From assembly GCA_949361645.1 (NCBI GenBank), contig OX442424.1, positions 814,241 through 878,240 of the forward strand: DNA of 64,000 bases, written 5' to 3'. Shown here in pieces: positions 13,209 to 44,947 of the stretch. The position numbers and the translations under genes were made by a program. The DNA is from Spongilla lacustris (taxonomy: Eukaryota; Porifera; Demospongiae; Spongillida; Spongillidae). The notes under the pieces were generated by a model that had not been told where the DNA came from, searched no databases, and worked only from the letters and a program-made list of their open reading frames with translations. How positions within the stretch are numbered: position 1 is the first letter of the stretch; each line of letters begins with the position of its first letter.

Positions 13209-14054
13209 ATGAAGGCTTGTCACATTATCTTGATTCTGGCAGCAGCAGCAGGACTGTCCTGTGGTGGTAGGGTCCCCAGTCCCATGTCAGTGTGGTGATT
13301 ATGTAATAATGTTCCTCACACAGTACTGCAAGTTGTACCTCTTCCCAACCCTGTGGTCCAGGGAAATGAAGCAAATCCCTCTACAGTCACTTCTCTGACC
13401 TGTGCAGTGTCCCCATCTCAGTTCTCTGCTACATGGAACATGTCTGGTACAGCCTTACAACCAGGAGGAAGGTATATGATACAGCAGAATGTATTAGTAT
13501 ACAATGGCACCACATATGGAACAACACTGCTGATTCCAATGTTGAGTTACACTGATGCAGGGAACTATACCTGTGTGATACAGCCATCCCCACCCAATGG
13601 ACCAGAGTCCTACTCAGCCACCATCCAACTGATCCTGTTAGGTAAGCTGTGTAGTGTGATATGTGAGGGTGTGACTGTGTACCCTCCTCTCCACAGTGAA
13701 GGTGGAGGTGTTGGCACCCACCTACATCACTGTCAATGCCACCACTACATCCCAGGTGGAGCTGAGTTGTGAGATGTCCCAGTACATCCATCCTGATGGA
13801 GACCTCTGGTGGTTTAGAGGAGGACAGAGTGTGGACACGGCCCAATCCAAGTACAGTGTTATGTACCGGAATGGGAACAAGCGTGCTCAGAATGGGGGCA
13901 GTATGAACACCATCAGTAGAGTGTCTGTACTAACAATCTTCCAGCTGACCTCATCAGACAGTGGGGTGTATACTTGTAGGCTGTCTGGAACTGACCAATC
14001 AGGAGATGTCAAACTGATGGTGGTGGGTAAGTGGGGTACGAACATGTGTGTGTG

Positions 14055-14107
<53 letters not shown>

Positions 14108-17100
14108 CAAAGGACAAGACACCTTCACTCGTGGGAAACAGTACTGTATGGGTAAGCTTCTCTCTGAAATATCCTTCCCTTCCACAGTCAGTGCCACTGT
14201 CACAAGTTCACCAACAACTGCTGTTGCATCCACTTCAAATGGTCTGTTCATACTCTTGGGTGGTAGAAAGGGGGTAGTGTGTACTATATAGGGGTTGAAG
14301 AGGGTAGTGTGTACTATATAGGGGTTGAAGAGGGTAGTGTGTACTATGTAGGGGTTAAAGAGGGTAGTGTGTACTATGTAGGGGTTGAAGAGGGTAGTGT
14401 GTACTATATAGGGGTTGAAGAGGGTAGTGTGTACTATATAGGGGTTGAAGAGGGTACATGTAGTGTGTACTATAGAGGGGTTGAAGAGGGAAGTGTGTAC
14501 TATATAGGGTTGATTAGGGTAGTGTGTACTATATAGGGTTAAAGAGGGTAGTGTGTACTATATAGGGTTGAAGAGGGTAGTGTGTACTATATAGGGGTTG
14601 GAGAGGGATATACCAGTAGCAGTTGAATGTGTGTGAGAGACTCAGAGAGAGAAGGACACCTTCACTCATGGGAAACAGTACAGTATGGGTAAGTTTCTAT
14701 CTGAAATATCCCTCCCACAGTCAGTGCCACTGTCACAAGTTCACCACAAACTGCTGTTGCATCCACTTCAATAGGTCTGTTCATACTGCTGGGGGGAGGG
14801 GGGGGGGGAACTGCAGAAAGGGGGTGGTGTGTACTATATAGGGTTGAAGAGGGTAATGTGTACTATATAAGTTTTGAAGAGGATAGTGTTTCTATCTGAA
14901 ATATCCTTCCCTTCCACAGTCAGTGCCACTGTCACAAGTTCACCAACAACTGCTGTTGCATCCACTTCAATAGGTCTGTTCATACTGCTGGGTGGAAAAA
15001 TTGTAGAAAGGGGGTAGTGTGTACTATATAGGGGTTGAAGAGGGTAGTGTGTACTATATAGGGGTTGAAGAGGGTAGTGTGTACTATGTAGGGGTTGAAG
15101 AGGGTAGTGTGTACTATATAGGGGTTGAAGAGACTATGTAGGGGTTGAAGAGAGTAGTGTGTACTATATAGGGGTTGATCAGGGTTGTGTGTACTATATA
15201 GGGGTTGAAGAGGGTAGTGTGTACTATATAGGGGTTGAAGAGGGTAGTGTGTACTATATAGGGGTTGAAGAGGGTAGTGTGTACTATATAGGGGTTGAAG
15301 AGGGTAGTGTGTACTATATAGGGGTTGAAGAGGGTAGTGTGTACTATGTAGGGGTTGAAGAGGGTAGTGTGTACTATATAGGGGTTGAAGAGACTATGTA
15401 GGGGTTGAAGAGAGTAGTGTGTACTATATAGGGGTTGATCAGGGTTGTGTGTACTATATAGGGGTTGAAGAGGGTAGTGTGTACTATATAGGGGTTGAAG
15501 AGGGTAGTGTGTACTATATAGGGGTTGAAGAGGGTAGTGTGTACTATATAGGGGTTGAAGAGGGTAGTGTGTACTATATAGGGGTTGAAGAGGGTAGTGT
15601 GTACTATATAGGGGTTGAAGGGGGTAGTGTGTACTATATAGGGGTTGAAGAGGGTAGTGTGTACTGTATAGGGGTTGAAGAGGGTAGTGTGTACTATGTA
15701 GGGGTTGAAGAGGGTAGTGTGTACTATATAGGGGTTGAAGAGGGTAGTGTGTACTATATAGGGGTTGAAGAGGGTAGTGTGTACTATGTAGGGGTTGAAG
15801 AGGGTAGTGTGTACTATATAGGGGTTGAAGAGACTATGTAGGGGTTGAAGAGAGTAGTGTGTACTATATAGGGGTTGATCAGGGTAGTGTGTACTATATA
15901 GGGGTTGAAGAGGGTAGTGTGTACTATGTAGGGGTTGAAGAGGGTAGTGTGTACTATATAGGGGTTGAAGGGGGTAGTGTGTACTATATAGGGGTTGAAG
16001 AGGGTAGTGTGTACTGTATAGGGGTTGAAGAGGGTAGTGTGTACTATATAGGGGTTGAAGGGGGTAGTGTGTACTATATAGGGGTTGGAGAGGGTAGTGT
16101 GTACTATATAGGTTGAATAGGGTAGTGTGTACTATATAGGGGTTGAAGAGGGTAGTGTGTACTATATAGGGGTTGAAGAGGGTAGTGTAAACTATATAGG
16201 GTTGAAGAGGGTAGTGTGTACTATATAGGGGTTGAAGAGGGTACATGTAGTGTGTACTATATAGGGGTTGAAGAGGGTAGTGTCTACTATATAGGGGTTG
16301 AATAGGGTAGTGTGTACTATATAAGGGTTGAAGAGGGTAGTGTGTACTATATAGGGGTTGAAGAGAGTAGTGTGTACTATATTAGGGTTGAAGAGGGTAG
16401 TGTGTACTATATAGGGGTTGGAGAGGGTAGTGTGTACTATATAGGGGTTGAAGAGAGTACATGTAGTGTGTACTATATAGGGGTTGAAGAGAGTAGTGTG
16501 TACTATACAGGGGTTGGAGAGGGTAGTGTGTACTATGTAGGGGTTGGAGAGGGTAGTGTGTACTATATAGGGGTTGAAGAGAGTACATGTAGTGTGTACT
16601 ATATATGGGTTGAAGAGAGTAGTGTGTACTATATAGGGGTTGGAGAGGGTAGTGTGTACTATGTAGGGGTTGAAGAGGGTAGTGTGTACTATATAGGGTT
16701 GAAGAAGGCAGTGTGTACTATATAGGGGTTGAAGAGGGTAGTGTGTACTATATAGGGGTTGAAGAGGGTAGTGTGTACTATATAGGGGTTGAAGAGGGTA
16801 GTGTGTACTATATAGGGGTTGAAGAGGGTAGTGTGTACTATATAGGGGTTGAAGAGAGTACATGTAGTGTGTACTATATAGGGGTTGAAGAGAGTAGTGT
16901 GTACTATGTAGGGGTTGAAGAGGGTAGTGTGTACTATGTAGGGGTTGAAGAGGGTAGTATGTACTATATAGGGGTTGAAGAGACTATGTAGGGGTTGAAG
17001 AGAGTAGTGTGTACTATATAGGGGTTGAAGAGGGTAGTATGTACTATATAGAGGTTGAAGAGGGTAGTGTGTACTATATAGGGTTGAAGAGAGTAGTGTG

Positions 17101-20100
17101 TACTATATAGGGGTTGAAGAGACTATGTAGGGGTTGAAGAGAGTAGTGTGTACTATATAGGGTTGAAGAGGGTAGTATGTACTATATAGAGGTTGAAGAG
17201 GGTAGTGTGTACTATATAGAGGTTGAAGAGGGTAGTGTGTACTATATAGAGGTTGAAGAGGGTAGTGTGTACTATATAGGGGTTGAAGAGGGTAGTATGT
17301 ACTATATAGAGGTTGAAGAGGGTAGTGTGTACTATATAGGGGTTGAAGAGGGTAGTGTGTACTATATAAGGGTTGAAGAGGGTAGTGTGTACTATATAGG
17401 GGTTGAAGAGGGTAGTATGTACTATATAGGGGTTGAAGAGGGTAGTATGTACTATATAGAGGTTGAAGAGGGTAGTGTGTACTATATAGGGGTTGAAGAG
17501 AGTAGTGTGTACTATATAGGGGTTGGAAAGGGTAGTGTGTACTATATAGGGGTTGAAGAGGGTAGTGTGTACTATATAGGGGTTGAAGAGGGTAGTGTGT
17601 ACTATATAGGGTTGAAGAGGGTAGTGTGTACTATATAGGAGTTGAAGAGGGTAGTGTGTACTATATAGGGGTTGAAGAGGGTAGTGTGTACTATATAGGT
17701 AGAAGAGGGTAGTGTGTACTATATAGGGGTTGAAGAGGGTAGTGTGTACTATATAGGGGTTGAAGAGGGTAGTGTGTACTATATAGGGGTTGAAGAGGGT
17801 AGTGTGTACTATAGGGGTTGAAGAGGGTAGTGTGCACTATATAGGGGTTGAAGAGGGTAGTGTGTACTATATAGGGTTGAAGAGGGTAGTGTGTACTATA
17901 TAGGGGTTGAAGAGGGTAGTGTGTACTATATAGGGGTTGAAGAGGGTAGTGTGTACTATGTAGGGGTTGAAGAGGGTAGTGTGTACTATGTAGGGGTTGA
18001 AGAGGGTAGTGTGTACTATACAGGGGTTGGAGAGGGATACCAGTAGCAGTTGAATGTGTGTGTGAGAGAGAGAGAAGGACACCTTCACTCATGGGAAACA
18101 GTACAGTATGGGTAAGTTTCTATCTGAAATATTTTTCCCTCCCACAGTTAGTGCCACTGTCACAAGTTCACCAACAACTGCTGTTGCATCCACTTCAAAT
18201 GGTCTGTTCATGCTGCTGGGGGGAAAACTGTAGAAAGGGGGTAGTGTGTACTATATATAGGGGTTGAAGAGGGCAGTGCGAACTATATAGGGGTTGAAGA
18301 GGGTAGTGTGTACTATGTAGGGTTGAAGAAGGTAGTGTGTACTATATAGGGGTTGGAGAGGGTAGTGTGTACTATATAGGCATTGGAGAGGGTAGTGTGT
18401 ACTATATTTATATAGGGGTTGAAGAGGGTAGTGTGTACTATATAGGGTTGAAGAAGGCAGTGTGTACTATATAGGGGTTGGAGAGAGTAGTGTAGGGATG
18501 AAGAGGGTAGTGTGTACTATATAGGGGTTGGAGAGGGATACCAGTAGCAGTTTAATGTGTGTGTGAGAGAGAGAGGACACCTTCATCTCTGCAATATTGT
18601 TCTCTTCCACAGTCAGTGCCACTGTCACAAGTTCACCAACACCATCCATTTCAATAGGTCTGTTCATGCTGCTGGGGGGGGGGGGGGGGGGGGGGGGAGG
18701 GGGGGGGAAGCAGTAGAAAGGGGGTAGTGTGTACTATATAGGGGTTGGAGAGAGTAATGTGTACTATATAGGGTTGAAGAGGGTAGTGTGTACTATATAG
18801 GGGTTTTGGAGGGTAGTGTGTACTATATAGGGGTTGAAGAGGGTAGTGTGTACTATATAAGGTTTGAAGAGGATAGTGTTTCTATCTGAAATATCCTTCC
18901 CTTCCACAGTCAGTGCCACTGTCACAAGTTCACCAACAACTGCTGTTGCATCCGCTTCAAATGGTGTGTTCATGCTGCTGGGGGGAAAACTGTACAAAGG
19001 GGGTAGTGTGTACTATATATAGGGGTCAAAGAGAGTAGTGCGTACTATATAGGGTTGAAGAGGGTAGTGCGTACTATATAGGGGTTGAAGAGGGTAGTGT
19101 GTACTATATAGGTTGAATAGGGTAGTGCGTACTATATAGGGTTGAAGAAGGTAGTGTGTAATATATAGGTTGAATAGGGTAGTGTGTACTATATAGGGGT
19201 TGAAGAGGGTGGTGTGTACTATATAGGGGTTGAAGAGGGTAGTGTGTACTATATAGGGTTGAAGAAGGCAGTGTGTACTATATAGGGGTTGAAGAGGGTA
19301 GTGTGCACTATATAGGGTTGAAGAAGGCAGTGTGTACTATATAGGGGTTGAAGAGGGTAGTGTGTACTATATAGGGTTGAAGAAGGCAGTGTGTACTACA
19401 TAGGGGTTGAAGAGGGTAGTGTGTACTATATAGGGTTGAAGAAGGCAGTGTGTACTATATAGGGGTTGAAGAGGGTAGTGTGTACTATATAGGGGTTGAA
19501 GAGGGTAGTGTGTACTATATAGGATTGAAGAGGGTAGTGTGTACTATATAGGGTTGAAGAGGGTAGTGTGTAATATATAGGTTGAATAGGGTAGTGTGTA
19601 CTATACAGGGGTTGAAGAGGGTAGTGTGTACTATATAGGGGTTGAAGAGGGTAGTGTGTACTATATAGGGTTGAAGAGGGTAGTGTGTAATATATAGGTT
19701 GAATAGGGTAGTGTGTACTATACAGGGGTTGAAGAGGGTAGTGTGTACTATATAGGGGTTGAAGAGGGTAGTGTGTACTATATAGGGTTGAAGAGGGTAG
19801 TGTGTACTATATAGGGGTTGAATAGGGTAGTGTGTACTATATAGGGGTTGAAGAGGGTAGTGTGTACTATATAGGGGTTGAAGAGGGTAGTGTGTACTAT
19901 ATAGGGTTGAAGAGGGTAGTGTGTACTATATAGGGTTGAATAGGGTAGTGTGTACTATATAGGGGTTGAAGAGGGTAGTGTGTACTATATAGGGTTGAAG
20001 AGGGTAGTGTGTACTATATAGGGGTTGAAGAGGGTAGTGTGTACTATATAGGGGTTGAAGAGGGTAGTGTGTACTATATAGGTTGAAGAGGGTAGTGCGT

Positions 20101-23100
20101 ACTATATAGGGGTTGAAGAGGGTAGTGTGTACTATATAGGGGTTGGAGAGGGTAGTGTGTACTATATAGGGTTGAAGAGGGTAGTGTGTACTATATAGGG
20201 TTGAAGAGGGTAGTGTGTACTATATAGGATTGGAGAGGGTAGTGTGTACTATATAGGGTTGAAGAGGGTGGTGGGTACTATATAAGGGTTGAAGAGGGTA
20301 GTGTGTACTATATAGCGGTTGAAGAAGGCAGTGTGTACTATATAGGGATTGGAAAGGGTAGTGTGTACTACATGTATGTAGGGGTTGAAGAAGGTAGTGT
20401 GTACTATATAGGGTTTGTGACAGATCGGCCTTCACACGGTTGAGGACAGTAGTGTGTACTAAAGAGGGTAGTGTGTACTATATAGGGTTGAAGGGGGTAG
20501 TAGTTTGTACTATACAGGGGTTGAAGAGAGTAGTGTGTACTATATAGGGTTGAAGAGGGTAGTGTGCACTATATAGGGTTGAAGAGGGTAGTGTGTACGA
20601 TATAGAGTTGGAGAGGGAAGTGTGTACTATATAGGATTGGAGAGGGTAGTGTGTACTATATAGGGTTGAAGAGGGTGGTGTGTACTATATAGGGTGTGTA
20701 CTATATAAGGGTTGAAGAGGGTAGTGTGTACTATATAGCAGTTGAAGAAGCTGGCAGTGTGTACTATATAGGGATTGGAAATTTTTACTATATAGGGTTT
20801 GTGACGGATCGACCTTCACAGGGTTAAAGAGGGTAGTGTGTACTAAAGAGGTAGTGTGTACTATATAGGGTTGAAGAGGGTATTGTGTACGATATAGAGT
20901 TGAAGAGCTAGGGAGTGTGTACGATATAGGGGTTGGAGAGGGTAGTGTGTACTATATAGGGTTGGAGAGGGTAGTGTGTACGATATGGAGTTGAAGATGG
21001 TAGTGTGTACTATATAGGGGTTAGAGAGGGTAGTGTATACTATATAGGATTGGAGAGGGTAGTGTGTACTATATAGGGTTGAAGAGGGTGGTGTGTACTA
21101 TGTAGGTGTGTGTACTATATAAGGGTTGAAAAGGGTAGTGTGTACTATATAGGGGTTGAAGAAGGCAGTGTGTACTATATAGGGATTGGAGAGGGTAGTG
21201 TGTACTATATTTATATAGGGGTTGAAGACGGTAGTGTGTACTATATACAGTTTGTGACGGATCGGCCTTCACACGGTTGAAGACAGTGGTGTGTACTAAA
21301 GAGGGTAGTGTGTACTATATAGGGTTGCCACTTGGAGAGGGTATAGTGTGTGATGTATAGGGGTTGAAAGGGATATTGGTAGCAGTTAAATGTGTGTGTG
21401 AGAGAGAGAAGGGCACCTTCACTCATGGGAAATAGTACAGTATGGGTAAGTTTCTATCTGAAATATTTTTCCCTTCCACAGTCAGTGCCACTGTCACAAG
21501 TTCACCAACAACTGCTGTTGCATCCACTTCAATAGGTCTGTTCATGCTGCTGGGTGGAAAAACTGTAGAAAGGGGGGTAGTGTGTACTATATAGGGGTTG
21601 AATAGAGTAGTGTGTACTATCAGTGTGGGGGGGGGGGGGGGGGGGGGGGGGGGCAATTGCCCCCAGGCGCCAACCTAAGTGGGCGCCAAAATGCCTAGAT
21701 ATTTGGTATAAATAGTATTGCAATGCGTACCGGATAATAAGCCGAGGAAAGGCCTATATTAATGCTCTTCAGTTTATACCTATGAAGAAACAGCAAGTCC
21801 GTGCATACTGTGATGAAATTGTGCTTTAATGGAGCTGAATTTTGGAACAGCAGCAGGGCGCCCCTCCTTCTCCCTCCCGTGCTGATAAATCGGCGCACTT
21901 GAGCTATACATTTCTACAGCGGAGAGTTCAGCGTGCACTCTGTGAAGTTGCTCAGTAAACAGCTTATTCTTATTGCTTATTCATTGGTTAGTAGTAGTAC
22001 TATATTTTAGTTCTGTAAACTGCGCGATGCGTAGTAGGCTGCTATTTTTACGTATAAATCTTGGTAAATGTATTAAAATGTCGTAATAGAGCGATTCTTT
22101 CAGCAGTTATTTTGATTGGTGCGCTAGTATTAGTACCCATCAAAGTTTAATGCACCTTGCTGCAAGCTTTTAGAGATGATGGTAAATTTTAACATAGCAA
22201 AGAAACTAAGCCGGCGCATGTCAGTAACGTACAATACAAATCTGCGATAAAACATATACAGCCGTTTAAATCCGCAAAATCACAATAGCCTGGAAACCAG
22301 AACGTAACGGAGTGGCGCGCATTTATTGGTTATGATTGCCTCCGTTTCTAATCCCCCTTATATGTACAATCTGTGGAAAAATTGGAATGTGTACAAAAAA
22401 AATTTTCGCGCGCGAATGTCACGCTGAATGAAATATCTATGTTTGAAGTAGGTCATCTGCCGGAATGTGTAAGTGGCTCAAATAGCAAGTAAAGCGCATG
22501 CATGTACAACACAGCCATTTTAAATTAGTAAAAGTACAATATAGCCTGGAACTTAACCAAGATGTAACGGAGTGGCACTCATTTATTGGTGTTGATTGCC
22601 TTATAGTTTCCAATCCCCCTTACATGTGGAAAAATTGGTATGTGCATCACAATAATTTTCGTGCGCGTCCCTCCCCTTCATCAATTTTCATGTCGGACCC
22701 CCCCCCCCCCCCCCCCCCCAAACCTATGTTATTAAAAATTAATGAACGCTTTAACGGCACAACGATCCATTGTTATAAATGTCCCAGCCCACAGGATGTA
22801 GTTAAACTGATATTCCGCGTGGAGGAAGCATTTAAGCTCTTCTGAAGCCAAGGAAATCTTCCATCGGGGTGGCCAATAGCAAACCCCTGCAAGTGAATTG
22901 ACTATAAGAGGAACTTAGTAAGCTTGATTGGTCGATTTTATGACCCTCTAAGATTCCTAGCTCCAGTTACTATAAGGTACAAAGTTCTATTCCAGAGTCT
23001 CTATCGATTGGGATTGTGACTTGTCACAAGAATTGTTTATAAATTGGAATGCTCTATTAGTTGACCTCAAGGAAGCAAGTCCGATTTCTATCCCTAGGAG

Positions 23101-26100
23101 CTATCACCATCACGTGGAAGGGAATTCAATGACTACATTCTTTGTGGCCTCTACGCAAGCCTATATGCTGCTGTGATTTATTTGGTGATCAAGTTGGATG
23201 TCAGTACAGAAGTGAAGTTCCTTGTCTCCAAAACCCGAGTTGCTCCTCTTCAAACTCAAACCATACCAAGATTGGAGTTACTCTCAGCCTTTCTACTCTC
23301 CAAACTCATAAGTTCTGTGAGTAACAGCCTTTCACCTACTTTCATTGAGATGCTACATGGATTCCCAAGTTGCACTCTGTTGGATTCGAGGAACTACAAC
23401 TATTCGTCAACAACAGAGTTAAGGAGATTCGCCACAAGGTTTGCCCCAATCTGTGGAACCATTGTCAAGCACTTCAAACCCTGCGGATCTACCTACTAGA
23501 GGTTTGACTCACCCGAACTATCTGTGAATCAGCTCTGGAGACGAGGACTTGAATTGTTACAGACTGGATTTGAACCTAGTGTTCTGAGTGAAGTATGTAC
23601 TTCCTGGGATCCCTGACGAGGTATCAAGAAGCCGAGCTCCTTTGGGTAAAATGTGCACAGAGAACCCCTAAGAACCATCCATGCACTGACATTCCTCATC
23701 ATAAAGCAAGCCCATGAACGTGTTCTCCACAATGGTGTTAAAGAAACACTAACTGAGGTTAGAGAAAGGTATTGAATACCAAGTGGAAGAAGTGTTACCA
23801 GAAGAGTTATACTGACACAAATATGGAATTTGTAAGAGATTTGAAGGAGCTCCTCTGAAGGCTCCAAAACCACCACCACTTCCAGAGTGCAGGGTAATGG
23901 AGTCTCCAGCTTTTACCTATTGACTTTGCAGGCCCTTTACTTATCCGCTCAGCACAGTCTGGATTGCATTGTTCACATGGTATGTGACTAGGGCCGTGCA
24001 TCTTGACACAGTTCAAGATCAGTCAACACTCCCGTTTATCAGATGTCTTAAGAGGTTTATAGCCATAAGAGGACTGCCAAGGTGTTTTGTATGAGACAAT
24101 GGGAAGACCTTCCAGGCAGCATCAAAATACCTAGATAAGGTGTTCAAGCATGGAGTACAAGATCATCTAAGAGTATTCAGAATCTCTTGGCAATTCAATG
24201 TTCCACTACGGTAGCTCCATGGTGTAATGGTTAGATCAACTAAGTGTTGCTTAAGGAAACTTATAGGACGAGCTCATTTCTCACTTGATGAACTGACTAC
24301 AACTCTGGCTGAGATTGAAGCAGTTTTCAATTCTAGACCATTGTCCTATGTATCAGGTGACGATATGGAAGAGCCCATCACTCCATCTCATTTGATTGTT
24401 GACCATCGAATACTGAACCTGCTAGATGACCTAAGCTTCGTGTGTGATTAGATCATGATGAGTTTACTCTCAATGCCACTCAAGTTACTCATCGAATTAA
24501 GCACTTGAATAATGTCCTTAACCACTTTTGGAAAAGGTGGCGCAAGGAGTATTTGAGTGGCCTGAGAGAGGCTCATGCTTACATGGCAAGGAAGCATTCA
24601 GACCATGGTAACCCTCCTGTCACAGTGGGAGACATTGTGATTGTTAATCTGTTGTGTGGACATTGGAAACTGGGCATTGTGCAAGAACTCTTCAAAGGAA
24701 AGGATGGTATGACAAGAGCTGCCACAGTCAAGATAGCCTCCAGTGATCAGCAGTATTCCACTTTGAAGAGGCCTATACAGTTGCTTTACCCACTTGAGAT
24801 ACGTTGTGAGTCAACAAATATCACCCATCCTGAGACACCATCTGTTCTGGATCCTGCAGAAGATGCGACTAAGCAAGTCCGCCCTAAAAGGACAGCTGCA
24901 AAGAAGGCAGTTGAGGTTATCTGGAGCTGGTTTACAGAGCTGGACAAAGATGACTGAAGCTGTAAACATTGTATTCACCTGTTTTGATTTGTACTCTGAG
25001 TTGACCCATCATGGTTAACGGGGGGGAATGTGTAGAAGTTATAATTAGATATTCGATAGCGATCCTCCGAAGAATTGTAGTAGCCAGGTAATTAGCGGCA
25101 AAAGCAGTGATAGGAAGTACTTCTTTACATGGTCCAGTACTTCCTATCACTGCTTTTGCCGTTAATTACCTGGCTACTACAATTCGGAGGAGGATCGCTA
25201 TCGATTGTAGCTGCGCCTTAGTAGTTACACGCGCGAATGATCATCATAGGGTCACTGGTACAACAATGAATATCTAATTACAACAGCTGTACTTTTTCAT
25301 TTCAAATTTTTTAAAAACAGGAACTGGCATAATAATTAATTATGAAGATACAAGCGCGCTTAGGTCCGTGTATAGGATCCAAGATAAACGCCCTGGCTCA
25401 CGAAAGAGAGTCATAGTACACTTCGATCGATTGAAGCCTTGCCCAGCCGACATACAGATGAAACCAGTGGTGGAGGATTTGCACAATTCTGATGCGAATG
25501 AGCAGCCTGTTCAGTTTCCTGGGAGTGATCTTCAGTTCTTTGAAGATGATGATCATGACGTCATGGTGGATTCCACAGAGACAAATGTGACTCGTAAGGC
25601 GGACCAACCTGGTAGCCGACAGTCGACACGCCCACTGAACAGAGCCCTGCTACTGATGGAGGGACAAATACAGAAGAAACTGCACCAGGTGACGCGGGAC
25701 TTTTAAACAGCACACCATCTGGTATCAATTCTGATGGCACAGTTTTTCAATCAGAAACAGTGACAACAAGGAGCCCGATGTCGAGACCTCAGAAACGGAT
25801 ACGCCAATCTCCCCCTGAACGAGACCGCTACCCAAAACAAACACGTCATGCCCCCTCCCGTTATGGCTGGTATTCTGGCTGGTGAAGCTTCAGTTATGAG
25901 AGTGCCTCTTTGCAAAAGGAGAGAGTGTAGCGATGCTATATGGACATATATTTTTGGTGTATGTACGTATGCGTGGGTGTTTAGCTGTGCAGCTCTACGC
26001 ATGCGCTGGTAAATGTCGTATTATTGCCCTTTTATAGCAGTCTGCTGATAATTATACAATTGCTGTGATTTGCTATAAGATTCACTCGGCAATAGCACTA

Positions 26101-29100
26101 CACAAGGAATAAAACCCGGACCACTATTGGCAACTCAAAGTGGACCAATTTTGGAGCGGCTTAGGGGACCCATTCGCGTCGGAGATGCCCCGTCTGCAAT
26201 ACGTTTTAAAAGGGGCGAGAGTTGAACGGTCGAAATCCACCCCTGGTGCCAAGCGTTGTCGCCTGCCAATCACGCCTGCCATCTTGCTAAGAATATAGAT
26301 GGGATGAGTGGCTCTTATCTTGAAGTGGAGACCCCATCGGGTTCCTATACAAGCAGGCTGTTAGCACTAGACAGCTGCGTGGCATCAAGAATTAGAAGGA
26401 TACCGATGGTACTCCAGAATATTTATATCCTATAAATAGAATTTTGGCAGCAAAAAGTGGTCCGCCCGGACCAATTTTAGCGTGACAGTTCCCCTCACGT
26501 TTAGCCAAATACGAGAGCGGGGTAGTCTCGTTCCCAGACTCACTTACGTAAGCATTACCGCATAATGTGTAATGCTACGAAAGAGAGTCTGGGAAGGAAG
26601 TTCAACTTTATCGTTCTGCGCGCACGAAATTGTGCGCGTCCAATCAAATTGCAGGTACGTCGTGACGTATACTAATTGCCTATAACTGCATTCACGTTAT
26701 ACCACATTGGTTGAGAACGATCATATGCTATGTATTTCCCTTTTGCCTTGGGCGTTCTACGTACTTTGCAATCGTAAATAGCTATTGCAGTCGAAGGACC
26801 AGGTACGTATTGTGCATTTAACGTTACTAGATTTTCATTTTATCTCATTGTTAGCTGCTTTTGCTACAGGAGACTATATAACAGGAGAAAGCAATGAGTC
26901 AACGCAGGCAGGAGCCTATAACGCTTAACATATATATGTTGAGCACGTTAATTCCGTGTTGCTGCAAGCATGCTATTGGGTACCCCAAAATGACCTGCAG
27001 CAAGAGGTCAGATAGATAATGTGATAACAGCGGTCATACGCCAGTCATAATCAGATAAGGTAGTCTGCGGCCAGCTGTCCTCATATTCCTGGAACAATGG
27101 AAGGTCTCGGACACTGGCAACATTTTTCAAGCTCCTTTTGAAAAAATACTGTATATCCTTCACTGAATAAGAGCTCATGCAGAGGCTATATATATCTGCG
27201 GTGGCTTGGCACACAAAGATATTGTATGTGCTAAATTAAATGTTTCACAGGAAGTATTCCCAGCCCTGCGTTTACCCTGCATGGGTTTTGTTCGACTATC
27301 CTAGGTTGATCCCAGGTTCCGATATGCTATTAACAAAATTCACAGTTGACTTGGCGGACCTCAATGCTTAGTCGTATCAACCTGGGATCATCGAACAAAA
27401 CCCAGCCTTCGGTTATTCAAAACAGGGTTATTACAAACTTTGCAGCTATTCATTCCGCGATCAAAAGCGGAAGAAAGCGAGTGAAACGTCACGCACAAGA
27501 TGTATTCCGTAGCTTCAAAGCATTCCTAAATGATAATTGAGCTATTGGTGACGTAGAGAATAAGTTGTTGCGTCACGATTATTGTGTAATATGGAATATT
27601 CCGCGGAACGAAAAAGTTGAACTTCCTTCCCAGACTCTCTTTCGTAGCATTACACATTATGCAGTAATGCTTACGTAGTGAGTCTGGGAACGAGACTAAG
27701 AGCGGGGGGCGTTCAGCCAAACACTAGCCTCGTCCCCAGGCCCTGTTTTATTGAAGTTACGGGGGGTGAAAAACCACCCCCCGTAACTTCAATAAAAACA
27801 GGGCCTGGGGACGAGGCTAGCCAAACACGAAAGCGAGAGTGCTGTCACCTTAGCTTCGGGCCTGATGCAAATGTTTTTAAGTACCATAGCTAGAGGGGGC
27901 AGAGCTAATTTCATTTTAATCATGGCGTTTAGCCTTATTATCACGACATACCTGAAGCCGCAGAGATAATATATTATCTCTGCCTGAAGCGTTGCGCAAA
28001 TAGCACCTAGCTGGCAGACAAGTTTGACATATGGGTGATGTAAACACTTGAAGTAAAGGTCTGCATGATTTACTATGTGCTTTCAGACTGACTGAAAAGC
28101 TTAGCTGCCATACCATTGGAGAGTGTGTGCCAATCAAGAGAGAGAGAGAGCAAAAATGACACTGAGGCATTAACTCAGGCACTTCATTCTGAGGAAGATG
28201 CTCCTACAAGCATTCCCTATTGATGGGAAAGTTTACGAGAATAGGGACCTAGCGCATATTGTAAAAAAATGTTATAAAAATGGCATTACGTTTGAATTGC
28301 TATATAACTTTCGAACGGTTAAAGCTATCAACATTCTATTTTCAGCACTTCATACTGCACCATTTCTCTATGGTAGAGTACATTTTGGCGTCTTGAAGAT
28401 GCTCCATGTCAGAATTGCAACTTCCAATACCACAAGGGGTTCAAACTCGCCATAACTTTCGGCAGGAATACTCAGATCGCTCCAAATTCGGTTAATTGGA
28501 TTGTTCTGTTCGTTGATTTTTATGTCGTCTGTTACAGAGATACAGTTGAACAAACTACTTGCACGTTTTCCCGCTTGATTCGCGCCAATGATATAACCAC
28601 CGCCTCCCCATACATTGAGCGGGACGCGATTTGCCCAAATCATTGGCGGGAATCGAGCGCGAAAACGTGCACGTAGTTTGTTCAACTGTATCTCTGTAGC
28701 AGCGGATGGCACAAAAATCAACGAACACAACATTCCAATAGCTAAGGGACCTCTCTATGTACAAACCGAATTTGGAGCGATTTGAGTATTCCTGCCGAAA
28801 GCTATGGCGAGTTTGAACCCCTTGGGGCATCGAACGTAGCGATACTGGCATGGAGCACGTTTAACACCCCCAAAATGTACTTTACCGTAGATAAAGGATG
28901 TAGTATGTATAAAGTGCCGAAAATAGGACGTTGATAGCTTTAACCGTTCGAAAGTTATAGCAATTCAAACGTAATGCCATTTTTATAACGTTTTTTTTTA
29001 TAATATGCGCTAGGTCCCTTTTCTCGTAAACTGTCCCTGATATTGGTATATAGTGTGGTTGTATTTCAATGGAAAACACATGTGTACAGTGAATCATATA

Positions 29101-31297
29101 ATTACTCTGGGTACCCGACTGATCGGTTGCTATAACTATAGTGATACGCAACCGATCAGTCGCGTACCCAGACTATATATATAATAATTATAATAATATA
29201 ATATATATATTATAATAATTATATATATATGCATGCATATGCTCGGTATGTGAACTACAACTACATGTATGTACACAATTTCACTGCCACCAACTTAATC
29301 TGAGTCTAGGACGAGGCCAATCTAGCTGAAGTGGAGGTCTGCAACTTGGCTGTTGAACTTGCGTATAGTATGGCTCACTGAGAATATATTCGAATATATT
29401 CTGTCATTGTTGATAAGAAGTGCAGATATTCACTATACATGTAGTATCATTAAAATCATAATAACGACTTTTAATAATTAAACCATTACTAGTTAGTAAA
29501 TCGTTCCATATGGATAGTATGTCTGAGTGTATTAGATTTAATTTACCATTGAATGGTTTATGATAAACCATGTTAAACCATGTGTTATTTCCAGACTGAG
29601 ATATTTACAATACATTAAAATCATAATAACGACGTTTAATAATTAAACCATTACTAGTTAGTAAATCTAGTTCCATATGGATACTATGTCTGAGTGTATT
29701 AGATTTAATTTACCATTGAATGGTTTATGATAAACCATGTTAAACCATAAGTGTTATTTCCAGGCATTGACGTCACGCGCGTCTTGTTACGTAATACGTC
29801 ATTGTATGTTGCACGACATGCTATAAATATGTACCACGTGAGCGTATGACACCACCTTCTTTCCTCCGTTGTTCGTTCTCGTCCGGTTATTGTTTATCTC
29901 GTACCCACGTGGTGTATATTTATAGCAACATACACAGTGATGCAAGACGCGCGTGACGTCAGGTTCAACTCCTCTATACATGTAGGCGCCAAAATGAGAA
30001 ATCTTGGAAGTACAAGTCGATCGTGCAGTTTACTACTATAGATGTAGTACTGGTAAGGACTGGTGCAGGAATTATAGCGGATGCCGATGGGTTTGTAGTT
30101 GTCTGTCCTACACCTGATCTGGGCACGAGACCACACCCACGCATCAATGAATGACCCGTGAATCAATAATACACGGAAAGCAACAAACAATTGAAGAGAA
30201 TCTCAAAAATACAACAACGTATTGGTCTGTGTGCCTTTCCGCCATGTTGAAATTTCTGTACCATTCTAGTTTTGATGCATCGATTTGTTGCCGTTTTTTT
30301 CGATTTTCCATTTTTTTAGGAGTACTGTATCACACAATTTTGCCTAATACTTGCTTCAGATTTCGACGCTTTCATTAACGAGTGGATCGAGAAATGGAAC
30401 GATTGCTTTAAATTACTTCCTATCTTGGTCCCGACAAATTTCGACATAAATATTGCAAATTTGGAATGGAACCAAACAAGCCCGGAATGCAATTGGGCTT
30501 CAATAATAACCGTAAAGCCCCACCCATATCCATTGAGAAGGGCGTAGCCCATTACGTTATGTCGTTATTACGCCAATATCCAGGGGGGTACCTGGTGTTG
30601 CCTAAGGCCCAGAGGTATTTGGCAGTGCCTCAGTAGGGCCCAGGGGTAGGTCGATCTCATTCTCACCTTTCACTACCTTTCTTTCCCCTTAGTTGCCACT
30701 CCTACAAATGATGGAGCCATTTCTCCAATAGTTCTATGGGCTGCAGTGGTTTCTACAACTGTAGTCATGGCAACTGTCATTATGGTAATTGTGTACCTCT
30801 GCATAAAGATACACAAAGCCAAAAAGGAAGAGAAACCCAACACCGGGTACAATCGCATGCCTCCTGTTGACAAAGGTGATGTGTGGTAGTACTGTGTACA
30901 GTACCCAATGTGCATTCATGTTACTGCATGAGGTTGTGATGACATTTTTGCATTGTTACAAATTTCTATTTCCTATCATTAATTTCCTCCATTAGCCACA
31001 CCTTCCGTCGAGGAGCTGATGTCCATATATGTTGGTAACCTGAACATGATCCAAAGTGTTGGTATCAAGTACTCCACCCTGGGGATATTCCTGCTGGAGG
31101 ATGATAATGGAGTGTTGGTGGCTGCACTCACATTGGAGCACCAGCGTAATGCTGAAGAGATCACACGTGCCATCTTCCAGAAGTGGATTGGTGGTACTGG
31201 AAGGAAACCCACAACATGGAGGACACTAGCTGGTGTTCTTAGACAGAGCCAGTTGGCTACACAGGCTGATGCAATTGAAACTTACTTAAATCGTTAG
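13209..31297 (+). CDS. Gene A: Ig-Ig-stalk-transmembrane-death domain receptor
   Basis: Type I membrane receptor reassembled from exons with consistent GT-AG sites, all phase 1: 13209-13266 (signal peptide, starts MKACHIILILAAAAG), 13324-13641 (Ig 1), 13697-14026 (Ig 2), 14188-14241 (Ser/Thr stalk), 30693-30875 (transmembrane), 30996-31297 (death domain and stop). With one stalk exon the product is 414 aa. Ig 1 has a Cys, a Trp and DAGNYTC; Ig 2 has LSC, WWFR and DSGVYTC. The helix is about residues 263-292, ending YLCIKIHK. The death domain (about 340-412) shows WIGGTGRKPTTW and LATQADAIETYL. The start is the only Met giving a signal peptide, and its context matches gene B. Six more stalk exons lie in the following intron and could be included without a frame change. 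Seen: exons, frame, motifs. Known: death domains recruit adaptors by homotypic binding. Inferred: a surface receptor feeding a death-fold pathway; the ligand is unknown. Linking 14241 to 30693 across transposon debris rests on phase and on identity to gene B. Confidence 0.8.
13324..13641 (+). CDS. Gene A exon 2: first Ig-like domain
   Basis: 318 nt, phase 1-1, the usual exon form for mobile Ig modules. It contains the B-strand Cys (LTCAVSPSQ), a Trp in ATWNMSG and the F-strand YTDAGNYTCVIQ motif, with sites for N-glycosylation (NMS, NGT, NYT). It corresponds to gene B 36287-36613, which is three codons longer before the first Cys. Confidence 0.85.
13697..14026 (+). CDS. Gene A exon 3: second Ig-like domain
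   Basis: 330 nt, phase 1-1. It contains VELSCEMSQ, the core DLWWFRGG, and the C-terminal DSGVYTCRLSG. It is nearly identical to gene B 36669-36998 and equal in length. The donor at 14027 (GTAAGT) is followed by a long (GT)n microsatellite. Confidence 0.85.
14045..14106 (+). repeat. (GT)n microsatellite
   Basis: About 25 GT dinucleotides just after the Ig 2 donor. Confidence 0.95.
14188..14241 (+). CDS. Stalk exon copy 1 (gene A)
   Basis: 54-nt phase 1-1 exon coding a Ser/Thr-rich 18-residue module (VSATVTSSPTTAVASTSN) after a polypyrimidine tract and CCACAG acceptor. The donor begins GTCTGT, a weak site. A mucin-like spacer between Ig 2 and the membrane is inferred. Confidence 0.75.
14270..14605 (+). 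repeat. 30-bp minisatellite, block 1
   Basis: Tandem units of a 30-bp consensus (core GTGTGTACTATATAGGGG then TTGAAGAGGGTA) directly after stalk exon copy 1. Ten-codon periodicity keeps frames open on both strands. Confidence 0.95.
14721..14774 (+). CDS. Stalk exon copy 2 (gene A)
   Basis: Second copy, 54 nt, acceptor CCCACAG, donor GTCTGT. It differs from copy 1 by a swapped AAC/CAA order in the middle and an Ile in place of the last Asn. Use in the mRNA cannot be told from DNA; phase 1-1 makes inclusion silent to the frame. Confidence 0.6.
   Translation, partial: SVPLSQVHHKLLLHPLQ
14920..14973 (+). CDS. Stalk exon copy 3 (gene A)
   Basis: Third 54-nt copy with acceptor TTCCACAG and donor GTCTGT, only about 145 bp after copy 2. 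The conserved 5' flank (TATCTGAAATATCC) is present, but the GTATGGGTAAG block seen before the other copies is missing. Confidence 0.55.
   Translation, partial: SVPLSQVHQQLLLHPLQ
15010..18030 (+). repeat. 30-bp minisatellite, main block
   Basis: About 100 units of the 30-bp repeat between stalk copies 3 and 4. A variant junction (GAGACTATGTAGGGG followed by TTGATCAGGG) recurs near 15130, 15390 and 15830, showing amplification of multi-unit blocks. Units with a 6-bp ACATGT insertion recur at 16240-16870. Confidence 0.95.
18148..18201 (+). CDS. Stalk exon copy 4 (gene A)
   Basis: Fourth 54-nt copy after 3 kb of 30-bp minisatellite. It starts TTAGTGCC rather than TCAGTGCC, still Val-Ser across the junction. 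Acceptor CCCACAG, donor GTCTGT. Confidence 0.55.
18613..18657 (+). CDS. Stalk exon copy 5 (gene A, short form)
   Basis: 45-nt version (three codons shorter, ending SPTPSISI), still phase 1-1. It resembles the single stalk exon of gene B (37128-37172), so gene B's form may derive from this type. Confidence 0.55.
   Translation, partial: SVPLSQVHQHHPFQ
18676..18708 (+). repeat. Poly-G run
   Basis: Long G tract after stalk copy 5. Similar runs follow copies 2 (14791-14809) and 7 (21626-21653). Confidence 0.9.
18910..18963 (+). CDS. Stalk exon copy 6 (gene A)
   Basis: 54-nt copy with one Thr-to-Ala change (ASASN). The donor begins GTGTGT, arguably better than the GTCTGT of the other copies. Confidence 0.55.
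21482..21535 (+). CDS. Stalk exon copy 7 (gene A)
   Basis: Last 54-nt copy, after 2.5 kb of degenerate 30-bp repeat, with the full upstream cassette (GTATGGGTAAG, then TTCCACAG). Beyond it the minisatellite fades and a poly-G/hAT-like sequence follows. Confidence 0.55.
   Translation, partial: SVPLSQVHQQLLLHPLQ
21640..22900. other. hAT-like and unassigned repeats in gene A intron
   Basis: After a G run, GGGCAATTGCCCCCAGGCGCC resembles a MITE terminus. About 22711-22810 is present in inverted orientation at 34545-34720 (shared ATCCTGTGGGCTGGGACATT on the minus strand). A C run lies at 22688-22709. No gene. Confidence 0.5.
22905..25028 (+). mobile_element. BEL/Pao retrotransposon, degenerate pol 3' half
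   Basis: Frameshifted and stop-ridden. Order: RNase H region (KTRVAPLQTQTIPRLELLSA at about 23236, PADLPTRGL-like at about 23490), integrase (YVTRAVHLD near 23980, DNGKTFQAA near 24100, LAEIEAVFNSRPLSYV near 24310) and the C-terminal DUF5641-type domain (HFWKRWRKEYL, then GDIVIV, to about 24790). It ends in a GGGGGGGAATG purine tract at 25020, as expected before a 3' LTR. Dead element in the gene A intron, sense orientation. Confidence 0.85.
25055..25208. repeat. Foldback element in BEL/Pao 3' end
   Basis: Palindrome with arms CGATAGCGATCCTCC and complement around TTTACATGG; about 70-bp arms. Confidence 0.7.
25350..25925 (+). mobile_element. Ty3/Gypsy retrotransposon 3' fragment
   Basis: About 25368-25450 codes VYRIQDKRP and VHFDRLKPC, the usual end of Gypsy integrase, followed by a low-complexity acidic C-terminus to about 25706 and a polypurine tract (GCAAAAGGAGAG) at 25913-25925. 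Confidence 0.7.
25926..26102 (+). repeat. Putative Gypsy 3' LTR
   Basis: 177 bp starting TGTAG immediately after the polypurine tract and ending CTACA, the expected short inverted LTR ends. The 5' LTR is not in the window. Confidence 0.6.
26523..27698. mobile_element. Mutator-like element, copy 2, 9-bp duplication
   Basis: 1,176 bp with ends TAGTCTCGTTCCCAGAC/GTCTGGGAACGAGACTA and AGAGCGGGG duplicated at 26514-26522 and 27699-27707. Long TIRs (about 100 bp with small gaps). An inner inverted repeat lies at about 27283-27410. No transposase recognised. Confidence 0.78.
27725..27819. mobile_element. Miniature Mutator-like foldback, 95 bp
   Basis: Perfect hairpin-like element with ends TAGCCTCGTCCCCAGG/CCTGGGGACGAGGCTA and GCCAAACAC duplicated at 27716-27724 and 27820-27828. 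Ends match the TAGTCTCGTTCCCAG family. Lies 8 bp past the previous element's duplication. Confidence 0.75.
28220..29040. mobile_element. Large foldback element, copy 2
   Basis: About 820 bp, arms meeting near 28630. Same family as 7702-8439. Neither strand codes a recognisable protein. Confidence 0.75.
29449..29762 (+). repeat. 148-bp direct repeat, two copies
   Basis: Copies at about 29449-29596 and 29615-29762, starting AAAATCATAATAACGAC and ending GTGTTATTTCCAG. Nearly identical, so recently duplicated. Confidence 0.85.
29766..29961. repeat. Palindrome with paired TGACGTCA and CACGTG sites
   Basis: Inverted repeat of about 196 bp. Each arm holds a CRE-type TGACGTCA (29768-29775, 29954-29961) and an E-box CACGTG (29835-29840, 29906-29911). 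Confidence 0.7.
29965..30692. other. Gene A intron end, unassigned
   Basis: No coding or element termini recognised apart from worn 29-bp repeat units at 30570-30650 just before the transmembrane exon. Confidence 0.5.
30693..30875 (+). CDS. Gene A transmembrane exon
   Basis: 183 nt, phase 1-1. It codes a short Thr-rich lead, a helix from about PIVLWAAVV to VYLCIKIHK, then a basic/acidic linker. It aligns with the start of gene B's last exon. Its donor (GTGATG at 30876) lies where gene B's tail has the similar sequence GTGATA. If the intron were retained, translation would stop at 30887 after four residues, giving a short-tailed form. Confidence 0.8.
30996..31297 (+). CDS. Gene A death-domain exon
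   Basis: 302 nt including the stop. Helices visible as YSTLGIFLLEDD, NAEEITRAIFQKWI and TWRTLAGVLRQ match the death-domain pattern, with both conserved tryptophans. It is preceded by a T-rich acceptor ending ATTAG. No equivalent exon is found near gene B. Confidence 0.8.
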
Positions 31298-31337
31298 CTA
31301 TGTGTTCTGTGTGTGCATTTATTGTTCTACCCAAATG

Positions 31338-31850: not shown

Positions 31851-31912
31851 TATCAGATATCTCTAACCTTAATCTTGAATGATTTTAATGATAGTAAAAA
31901 TATACATGTAAG

Positions 31913-32241
31913 GAACCCTACTACAGTGAAGTCCAGAGATCACCCCCTCATACTGACATGGCTGCTTGCAGTCACATGCCTTCTGTTGACATAGGTGATA
32001 AGGTGACCACTGCTCAGAGACCACCACATTCAGATCCCATTGGTCCAAGACCACCAGATGATCCCATTGGTCTAAGATAAGATCACCAGATGATCCCATT
32101 GGTCTAAGACCACCAGATGATCCCATTGGTCTAAGATCACCAGATGAACCCATTGACCTTAAAGATTGTGAAGCTTACATAGAACGAACAGCTTTGGAAG
32201 CTCCTCCTCTTCCTGTTCAAGATGAAGATGACTATATATAA
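31913..32241 (+). pseudogene. Relic of a gene-B-type cytoplasmic tail
   Basis: Closely similar to the tail part of gene B's last exon: it begins EPYYSEVQRSPPHTDM and ends QDEDDYI. A 5-bp insertion near 32075 creates a TAA at 32078-32080, and the reading frame is lost for the rest. The nearest AG (31911-31912) would join out of phase with the gene A transmembrane exon and stop after a few codons. It lies 0.6 kb past the death-domain stop, separated by a dispersed AT-rich repeat. Most simply a dead tail left when gene A adopted the death-domain ending. Confidence 0.75.
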
Positions 32242-42760: not shown

Positions 42761-44947
42761 TCAGCTGGAGGAAGAGAGCACATTTCCCATGGATGCCACA
42801 AATGATTTAAGAGAAGAAGAAAGACGAGTGGTAATACCCATGGATGATGACTGCCCAGTGATCACCTGACCTCCTTCACTGGCTTCTAGGTCATCCTCAT
42901 CCCCAGTCCCCTCTGCTTGTGAGACCTCCTCATCCCCAGACTGCTCTGCTTGAGGAATTCTCTCCTCCCCAGTCTCAACACCCCCCTCCTCCCCTTCCAC
43001 AGTTTCCTGATGGTGTATCTCCCCAGACCTGATTCCACCTCCTGCTGGACCAGTATCAGAGAGGCGCAGTAGCTCCCTTGAAGCGACGACATTGCTCCCC
43101 CCACCAGCATGCACTGGTGCCTCTGTGGACACATTACCAGGAGAACTACTACAGCAACCAAGATACCTCTTCTTTCCAACATGGCTGCTGTGCTCCCTAG
43201 AAGTAATGACATTGTTTCCACCAATACCACTACATGTACTTGCTGCTGTTTCCGTGGTGATATTAGATTGTATCTCCCCAGACCTGATTCCACCTCCTGC
43301 TGGACCAGTATCAGAGAGGTGCACTGGTGCCTCTGTGGACACATTACCAGGAGAACTGCTACAGCAACCAAGATACCTCTTCTTTCCAACATGGCTGCTG
43401 CTGGCTAGCTGAAGAAGTTCATGCTCCCTAGAAGTAATGACATTGCTTCCACCAATAACATTACATGTACTTGTTGTTGTTTCCGTGGTGATATTTAGTT
43501 CTTCAGGTGGCCTGCAATTGTGTCCCATACAAAGTGGGCGTGGTCCATTTACCACTCCAGACGCACTAGCAGGTTGCAGAGAGGGTCCCGGCTGATATGA
43601 TTCACCAGCCACAAAGGCCTGATCAGTTGGGTGTGGCTTTTCTTGCTGACACACCACTTCAATGACCCCAGCAGAGGTACAGAAGGGTAATATCGGTGTG
43701 TGCCCATGTCTTGGACCCAGTGTGGAGGCTGGGGAGGAGGAGGCCACACCCACCTGTTCTGCTCGATGCCACAATGGTTCAACAGACTCCTGCTGTGAAG
43801 GCTGTGCTGTCTGTTCTTCTGATGGGGTCAGCCACCTGTGCGAGCCTGTGCTGTGCTGTTTGGAGGGAGCAGCTGGCCCAGGCACAGCTGAAGGTGTGTG
43901 GTCACCAGATCCGGGAGGGTCAGAAATGGGTGTGGCATCTGAACTGGGTGGAGCCTCGGTGGGCGGGGCAAATGATTTGGGCGGGACATCAGTGGGTGGA
44001 GCTAAAGGAAGTGAACACTGCTTGGCACCAGGTGAGAGCATGAGACGCTTTGGAGGCGGAGCTTCGGAACTCTCACCTGACAACCTTTTTGACGGTCCAG
44101 AGCAGGTGGTCAGCGGAGGGGTTAAGGGAAGATCGGGTGCTGGGTGAGGTACAGAGAGGCGTACGGGCATTGAGAGAGGCGTGGAATGGAGACTGATTGA
44201 AGTCACTGTCATCGGCGAGCCACTGGAGGCACCTGGCTGCAGAGAGAAGGATAATGGACCACTGAACGTGTGTGGCCACGAGGGGGGCGTGACCCATGGG
44301 GTACGTGGGTGTAGTGGTGACCACGTGACCCCTGGGGTACTGCATTGTGTACTATAAGGTGAGGGCGGGGCCAGCTTCTGCTGGTACTGGTACAGCAGAT
44401 CCGTTGCGTCTTTCATCGCGAGGACGTCAAAGAAATCCTCCAACAGCTCCACGTCGGTCTCACTTATAAACCCACTTAGCCTCAGCTCATCGAACAGCTT
44501 AAAACCTTCCCTGAGACCGTCCTTGCACCCGCGGGGAAGTGGGCTCAGCATTACCATAATCTCCAGCTTGTTCTTCTGCAGCTTCCCGCTGATGCCGGAC
44601 AGCGTCTTGCGGAACTGGTGTCTCTGGTCGTCGCTCACGTTCTGGCTACGTGATTTTCCCCCCATAGTGGACTGGAGGTAGGGTTCGTCACTCTTAAATG
44701 CTCGAATAATCGCGCGGTACTTTCCGAAGTGCTCTACATCCGAAAATAGCCTCTCGAGTGACGTCAGGAAGTTCTCGGTGTCTACGTACGTTTGTCTAAG
44801 CACATCGAACAGCCTAATGGCGGAAGTCGCTTGGTCCTTTTGGACCTGGTTCAACTCATGACACTGAAACTTGAGGTCTTCTAGTTCGCTAGCGGTGACC
44901 TGCAAAGCCAGTCGCGCTAACAAGCGATCCAGTGGACTCAGTTTCAT
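42761..44947 (-). CDS. Tandem death-effector-domain protein, single exon
   Basis: 728-aa uninterrupted ORF. DED 1 is about residues 5-85 (ASELEDLKFQC, IRLFDVLRQ, GKYRAIIRAF) and DED 2 about 108-190 (FRKTLSGISGKL, KLFDELRLSGFI, ATDLLYQYQQ). Both show the six-helix hydrophobic pattern, but the RxDL charge motif typical of chain-forming DEDs is not evident. The remaining 530 residues are Pro/Ser/Thr-rich and disordered-looking, with a 70-residue (210-bp) internal duplication around HVGKKRYLGCCSSSPG. No caspase domain is present. Known: DED pairs occur in caspase-8/10, cFLIP and some invertebrate adaptors. Inferred: an adaptor or regulator of caspase-type signalling. Lacks introns although the neighbours are intron-rich. 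The start is the first Met, immediately before the first DED. Confidence 0.75.
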   Translation of the reverse strand: MKLSPLDRLLARLALQVTASELEDLKFQCHELNQVQKDQATSAIRLFDVLRQTYVDTENFLTSLERLFSDVEHFGKYRAIIRAFKSDEPYLQSTMGGKSRSQNVSDDQRHQFRKTLSGISGKLQKNKLEIMVMLSPLPRGCKDGLREGFKLFDELRLSGFISETDVELLEDFFDVLAMKDATDLLYQYQQKLAPPSPYSTQCSTPGVTWSPLHPRTPWVTPPSWPHTFSGPLSFSLQPGASSGSPMTVTSISLHSTPLSMPVRLSVPHPAPDLPLTPPLTTCSGPSKRLSGESSEAPPPKRLMLSPGAKQCSLPLAPPTDVPPKSFAPPTEAPPSSDATPISDPPGSGDHTPSAVPGPAAPSKQHSTGSHRWLTPSEEQTAQPSQQESVEPLWHRAEQVGVASSSPASTLGPRHGHTPILPFCTSAGVIEVVCQQEKPHPTDQAFVAGESYQPGPSLQPASASGVVNGPRPLCMGHNCRPPEELNITTETTTSTCNVIGGSNVITSREHELLQLASSSHVGKKRYLGCCSSSPGNVSTEAPVHLSDTGPAGGGIRSGEIQSNITTETAASTCSGIGGNNVITSREHSSHVGKKRYLGCCSSSPGNVSTEAPVHAGGGSNVVASRELLRLSDTGPAGGGIRSGEIHHQETVEGEEGGVETGEERIPQAEQSGDEEVSQAEGTGDEDDLEASEGGQVITGQSSSMGITTRLSSSLKSFVASMGNVLSSSS

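Follow-up and report, generated by a model that had tools for sequence, protein, structure and literature searches.

A putative sponge Ig-type receptor with a death-type tail, probably built by copying the last exon of a Roc-like GTPase gene

The locus described here raises the question of whether a sponge, Spongilla lacustris, encodes a receptor with two immunoglobulin (Ig) domains outside the membrane and a death domain inside, and where the parts of such a receptor would come from. The gene concerned, gene A, lies in the window, the whole stretch of 64,000 nt that was analysed (C11:814241-878240; C11 is chromosome 10). Genome searches covered 248.56 Mb in 51 contigs. Death domains in general are docking modules, and sponge Ig-TIR receptors combine Ig domains with a TIR signalling domain.

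Results

Six predicted exons of gene A join in one frame

Checking splice borders and phases, we find that six exons in the window, with GT/AG borders and matching phases, give one open frame of 414 aa that closes with a TAG stop. The first exon is entered in phase 0 and the other five in phase 1. The first-pass annotation had claimed that these exons join in frame, which is borne out; so is the order Ig-Ig-stalk-transmembrane (TM)-death in a sponge gene, as a matter of predicted exons, with the membrane helix, like the signal peptide, read by eye. The exons are the following.

13209..13266, + strand: gene A exon 1, start codon and signal peptide, read by eye (MKACHIILILAAAAGLSCG); splice border and phase; counterpart in gene B at 36172
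13324..13641, + strand: gene A exon 2, Ig domain 1, phase 1-1; borders and Pfam
13697..14026, + strand: gene A exon 3, Ig domain 2, phase 1-1; borders and Pfam
14188..14241, + strand: gene A Ser/Thr stalk exon, 54 nt, phase 1-1; splice border and phase
30693..30875, + strand: gene A transmembrane exon with a basic juxtamembrane stretch; 80% identity to the gene B TM exon over 45 aa
30996..31297, + strand: gene A last exon, death-type domain and stop; genome, Pfam, family-profile and HHalign matches

The Ig part of the earlier claim held in Pfam, where two domains were found by both Ig_3 (E 4.9e-16) and ig (E 4.4e-14), with two stretches per profile. The TM exon would be left through a predicted splice donor, AAG/GTGATG at 30875. 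Scored with a splice-donor matrix, this site ranks in the top 2% of the GT sites of the window and is the highest-scoring GT in 30780-30990. If it is unused, the frame stops four residues on (GDVW, then stop). A genome search with the juxtamembrane stretch matched only itself, giving no source elsewhere. Scoring 7,997 candidate homologues of the 414-aa product, we obtained three Ephydatia muelleri proteins, none of the three with a death domain; P0001, a relative from E. muelleri, ends in a short tail.

Gene B supports the long intron of gene A

Between its Ig exons and its TM exon, gene A would have an intron of 16.5 kb. Runs of N are absent from the whole window, so an assembly gap is ruled out as the origin of this intron. 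Further support came from gene B.

36172..39087, + strand: gene B, signal peptide-Ig-Ig-stalk-TM plan; tail with EPYYSEI and RPPD-PIGL-type repeats, ending in EDDYI; without a death domain

Gene B has the exon order of gene A with like borders, all within 3 kb, and the DNA at the TM-exon acceptor of gene A matches that of gene B. The repeated order and the shared acceptor DNA together support splicing over the long intron, from the Ig exons to the TM exon. The TM-tail exon of gene B gave no Pfam match at E<=0.001. At 3.7 kb past gene B, the minus strand (window 42764-44953) has an open frame of 730 aa in which Pfam recognises a death effector domain (DED, E 1.7e-9). A genome search for DED placed six of its eight matches on C11 at 518-528 kb, and the window's own DED was not among the matches listed.

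Inside the long intron of gene A we find six extra copies of the stalk exon (five of 54 nt and one of 45 nt), all of phase 1-1.

14721..14774, + strand: duplicate stalk exon, in frame, candidate cassette, 54 nt
14920..14973, + strand: duplicate stalk exon, in frame, candidate cassette, 54 nt
18148..18201, + strand: duplicate stalk exon, in frame, candidate cassette, 54 nt
18613..18657, + strand: duplicate stalk exon, in frame, candidate cassette, 45 nt
18910..18963, + strand: duplicate stalk exon, in frame, candidate cassette, 54 nt
21482..21535, + strand: duplicate stalk exon, in frame, candidate cassette, 54 nt

Seven in-frame Ser/Thr stalk exons of 18 or 15 residues are thereby spread through a minisatellite intron at 14188-21535. 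Any number of cassettes from 0 to 7 keeps the frame, and all seven would give 519 aa. Their splice donors are weak in six of the seven cases (82nd-85th percentile of window GT sites) and stand at the 98th percentile in one. The repeated cassettes are a possible means of varying the length of the receptor stalk.

The minisatellite beside the stalk copies has a 30-bp unit, with ~11 units at 14268-14607 and ~192 at 15008-20694. The same unit occupies the corresponding introns of gene A (14268-20694) and gene B (37217-38115) in very different copy numbers. Pieces of a Pao-type retroelement lie in the same gene A intron at 23098-24954 (Peptidase_A17, E 2.5e-14; DUF5641, E 3.3e-17).

The ectodomain of gene A belongs with sponge Ig-RTKs

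Searching the genome with the Ig exons, we found close relatives on C11 only, namely gene B and, at 245-276 kb, four full copies and one broken copy. A distant relative (39%) lies on C11 at 2.5 Mb. The Ig domain 1 exon has six further copies on C11 at 66-83% identity, one of them partial, and the C11 copies of the Ig domain 2 exon show 83-94% identity, one being in two pieces. Ig domain 1 also gave 20 weak matches on C24, C4 and C19 (32-37%, E 1.8e-4 to 0.008). A second, distant cluster of exons weakly like this domain (34-37% identity) occupies C24:6184620-6517365.

Read by eye, the four full C11 paralogues (245-272 kb) each continue into an open frame that has a TM segment and tyrosine-kinase motifs. 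One assembled paralogue product matched a kinase at E 6.3e-80 and Ig at E 7.6e-15. A search with the paralogue product returned 59 proteins, three of which carry both Ig and kinase: a class II receptor tyrosine kinase-like protein of Halichondria panicea, an Amphimedon protein named MAP kinase kinase kinase, and one unnamed protein. Alignment shows an Ig2 signature common to gene A and the Halichondria and Amphimedon proteins. The two Ig domains of gene A are homologous to the ectodomain of sponge class II RTKs. Neither translation nor Pfam gives a kinase in the gene A product; it is therefore an Ig-RTK family member by its ectodomain and not an RTK. Gene A, as predicted, is one chimeric member of the sponge Ig-RTK family and not an isolated receptor class.

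The last exon resembles a death domain at the family level

Taken alone, the last exon of gene A scores 15.9 bits against Pfam Death (E 0.015), the cut-off being 22.6. In a set of 20 such exons, ten reach E<=0.01 against Pfam Death, and that of gene A is not one of these ten. We translated 57 exons besides that of gene A; the one with an internal stop (L012) was set aside from the profiles and kept as DNA in the alignment, dN/dS and private-change analyses. A profile of 20 diverse death exons (gene A plus 19 of the 56 stop-free translations) retrieved three FAS sequences from PDB at E 5.7e-5 to 8.8e-5. FADD and TRADD followed at E 0.07 and up, not significant alone. When the 57-sequence exon family was compared by HHalign with eight death domains from this genome that are Pfam-positive (two of them nearly identical), the probability was 90.6 over 73 columns.

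AlphaFold modelling of the death exon with two E. muelleri relatives (3 sequences) gave a mean pLDDT of 70 for the best model and 45-52 for the other four. The best model places strands before residue 45, where helices are expected, and a PDB fold search with it gave nothing at E<=0.001 (best 0.91). Membership of the death-domain superfamily is found at the level of the family profile only. The earlier claim of a death domain stands in that the exon is death-type by its family profile, and is weaker than stated in that the single exon (E 0.015) falls below the cut-off. We take the last exon as a divergent predicted death domain whose C-terminal 60 residues are well supported and whose N-terminal part is putative.

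The death exon was probably copied as DNA from a Roc-like GTPase gene

Searching the genome with the death exon, we obtained at least 150 scored matches at E<=0.01, gene A included, some partial or with stops. Gene A and its close copies share a segment that extends beyond the exon at both ends.

30889..31323, + strand: segment common to gene A and close death-exon copies; intron end, death exon and ~25 nt past the stop

By blastn, this segment is 84-95% identical in all 14 close copies fetched. It starts at 30889-30905 in nine of them and at 30983 in the other five, and intron DNA is common with gene A in 9/14. Roc-like GTPase coding sequence lies within 1.5 kb upstream of 11 of the 14 copies. 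Roc-like GTPase sequence is also present in every 10-kb stretch around ten close copies (10/10), including L010 and L019, where the coding sequence lies further off and another, less similar death exon stands between. None was found at L015, at the distant copies L041-L043 or in the 64-kb window. At L031, the one donor locus tested, Kelch repeats are followed by a P-loop GTPase and the death exon; this GTPase matches Pfam Roc below threshold (E 7.6e-4). In the E. muelleri proteins P0004 and P0005, the GTPase and death parts follow one another as at L031; P0005 has precomputed Roc and Ras domains. The by-eye reading of open frames covered the death-exon loci other than L034-L039.

The acceptor and inferred phase of the death exon are identical in the donor-family locus and in gene A, which argues that the death piece moved as DNA with its acceptor. 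Most of the close copies end Roc-like GTPase genes, and intron DNA is common to them and gene A; up to 435 bp was therefore probably copied, as DNA, to a position behind the membrane exon. An mRNA retrocopy is ruled out as the route of transfer because intron sequence moved along with the exon. Downstream of the death exon, we find a relic of another tail.

31907..32241, + strand: broken remnant of a gene-B-type cytoplasmic tail; two pieces in different frames, stop in the first; DNA match to the L029 tail copy

The L029 copy is a further gene-B-type tail (L029:6749-7016), on C11 at ~811 kb just left of the window, and the 10 kb read around it contained no Ig or TM exon matches.

Near scaffold ends, those of C1, C3, C4, C5, C6, C9 and C18, there are also close death-exon copies. 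Of 33 near-full-length copies (>=76% identity), 28 lie less than 1.5 Mb from a scaffold end, against 22% expected for their contigs. Seven partial copies at >=75% identity were left out of this count, and the lengths of C4 and C12 came from a published table. The Roc-GTPase/death family appears to be subtelomeric and to have expanded strongly.

Substitution patterns in the Ig exons and the death exon

Compared with five paralogues over Ig1 and Ig2, gene A has pairwise dN/dS values of 0.54-0.69; the others give 0.58-1.19 among themselves. The ratios of gene A argue that it is not simply decaying; what the Ig exons undergo, judged from these values, is fast evolution and not plain decay. For the death exon, dN/dS between gene A and 14 donors is 0.73-4.9, at least 1 in 13 of the 14 pairs and based on few changes, and constraint after transfer is therefore unproved. 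Among the donors themselves, non-synonymous differences total 521.5 and synonymous ones 293.5 over the 91 pairs.

Counting at sites where at least 12 of the 14 donors agree, we find 11 private single-base changes in the gene A death exon, all 11 non-synonymous. They fall on residues less conserved in the family than expected by chance (P 0.012, 20,000 draws). Four of the 11 private states are common to the outgroup copy L041, so some of these changes may predate the transfer; the death-exon tree places gene A with a support of 0.54 only. In neutral simulations with 11 changes (n=5,000), the frame stays open in 70%. The pattern of private changes is weak evidence that would favour a working protein, with the times before and after transfer inseparable.

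Discussion

Gene A and known receptors

The combination of Ig and death domains is not new in animals, because UNC5 has it: in the portion of PMC9596381 consulted, UNC5 carries a pair of Ig domains, a TM helix and, at its C-terminus, a death domain. Gene A likewise has two Ig domains outside, one TM (by eye) and a C-terminal death domain. UNC5 adds two TSP domains outside and ZU5-UPA inside, and the Ig domains of gene A are of the sponge RTK type. TSP1, ZU5 and UPA are absent from the 17 Pfam families reported at E<=1 for the gene A product, and an UNC5 orthologue was rejected on this ground. Calling gene A a distinct receptor class, as was initially proposed, overstated the case, since in UNC5 a death domain is already combined with two Ig domains and gene A is a member of the Ig-RTK family.

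FAS and its kin share with gene A the type I plan and a cytoplasmic death domain, and the exon profile finds its best PDB match in FAS. Their ectodomain is cysteine-rich, of TNFR type, whereas that of gene A is Ig; with no TNFR cysteine-rich repeats in the gene A product by Pfam, a TNFR-type receptor was also rejected. The Ig-TIR (IL-1R-like) receptors are set apart by description, their cytoplasmic TIR being absent from gene A in Pfam. In the section of PMC6208332 consulted, a gene of Dysidea avara that combines Ig domains with a CARD is listed as up-regulated at 1 h; like gene A it couples Ig to a domain of the death/TIR network, and by description its signalling domain differs.

The closest likeness outside the membrane is to the Geodia RTK and class II RTKs, with a signal peptide, Ig1-Ig2 with a shared signature, a Ser/Thr stalk and a TM, Geodia being compared by description. 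Where gene A has the death exon, sponge Ig-RTKs have juxtamembrane tyrosine motifs and a kinase. Inside the membrane, the likeness is to the Spongillidae Roc-like GTPase death genes, which have the last exon, acceptor and inferred phase of gene A; these encode GTPase proteins, with no Ig or TM in the parts read. In open-licence PMC literature, as represented by excerpts that include PMC11999971, PMC6208332, PMC4772301, PMC6321704, PMC8195603 and PMC2575513, we found no sponge Ig-TM-death receptor.

Weighing the explanations

We favour, with a probability of about 0.6, the reading that gene A combines an Ig-RTK ectodomain and TM with a DNA-copied Roc-like GTPase death exon into a type I receptor with a death output. 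It is unlikely, in our view, that the death exon is a passive genomic passenger outside the mRNA, gene A being short-tailed (ending in GDVW) or dying. Read-through of the TM exon does stop after four residues, but the donor at 30875 that would avoid it is the best GT in 30780-30990 and ranks among the top 2% of the window's GT sites. The same acceptor stands before donor-family copies, and the phase fits, a 1-in-3 event by chance. The tail remnant downstream is already broken and the E. muelleri relative P0001 is short-tailed without a death domain, as a passenger would lead us to expect, while the Ig exons of gene A, at dN/dS 0.54-0.69 against five paralogues, do not show simple decay. The open frame is weak evidence when 70% of 5,000 neutral simulations keep it too, and death-exon dN/dS is at least 1 in 13 of 14 donor pairs; the private changes nevertheless avoid conserved residues.

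That the Ig exons and the TM/death exons are two genes is very improbable. The intervening 16.5 kb of minisatellite and Pao retroelement, with ~192 copies of the 30-bp unit in one array and Pao-type pieces, invites such a division, yet gene B has like exons in like order within 3 kb and the same repeat in its corresponding intron, and the exon phases match; separate genes were rejected because gene B shows the same plan. A different matter is what the last exon would do. It may be, though we put this below even odds, a death-fold docking piece for Roc-GTPase/death proteins that tunes immune or allorecognition signalling and does not kill. Its nearest relatives are the death exons of Roc-like GTPase genes. 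Amphimedon, as described in the part of PMC8195603 consulted, has very large death-like-domain families (357 TRADD-N proteins, most with death-like domains, and many of unique architecture). Such a docking role is compatible with the chimeric death receptor and not opposed to it.

A proposed history and mechanism

The history that we propose for the chimeric death receptor starts from what the sequence shows. By sequence, the ectodomain and membrane exon go back to the receptors of the sponge Ig-RTK family, and the cytoplasmic end is a DNA-level copy, intron end included, of the final exon of a Roc-like GTPase/death gene, placed behind the TM exon. Further downstream lies an older cytoplasmic tail, now broken. 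The TM exon is most likely spliced to the death exon, giving a type I receptor with the Ig pair outside and the death domain inside. A ligand, possibly a self or neighbour-cell molecule, would bind or cluster the Ig domains so that the death domains gather. These may then recruit death-domain-bearing partners through like-with-like contact, the candidates being adaptors or Roc-GTPase proteins with near-identical domains. Recognition that the RTK paralogues read out with a kinase, and gene B with tyrosine motifs, would here be turned into a cell-death or inflammatory-type output; we infer this routing from how FAS, UNC5 and death domains generally work. The DED matches of this genome, with the one in the window, bear on the death-signalling reading as circumstantial evidence.

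More speculative, and doubtful as a whole, is the picture of a working Ig-type death receptor built within the genus or species. Its ectodomain would come with three interchangeable tails (kinase, tyrosine-motif and death), forming a paired-receptor-like set at the base of animals, possibly for self/non-self, with a stalk tunable by up to seven cassettes.

Significance

Graft recognition is a context in which the ectodomains of sponge Ig-RTKs have been discussed. The excerpt of PMC12018476 consulted cites the Ig-like domain of the Geodia RTK. What we call new in gene A is the putative placing of a sponge Ig-RTK ectodomain on a borrowed death exon, which would be young and exon-shuffled; the Ig-death combination itself is known. 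Gene A would be a case in which a death-receptor-like protein arose by one exon copy event whose donor family, recipient, approximate limits and older-tail remnant are still readable. It makes testable the idea that one family of sponge recognition ectodomains may feed kinase, tyrosine-motif and death outputs.
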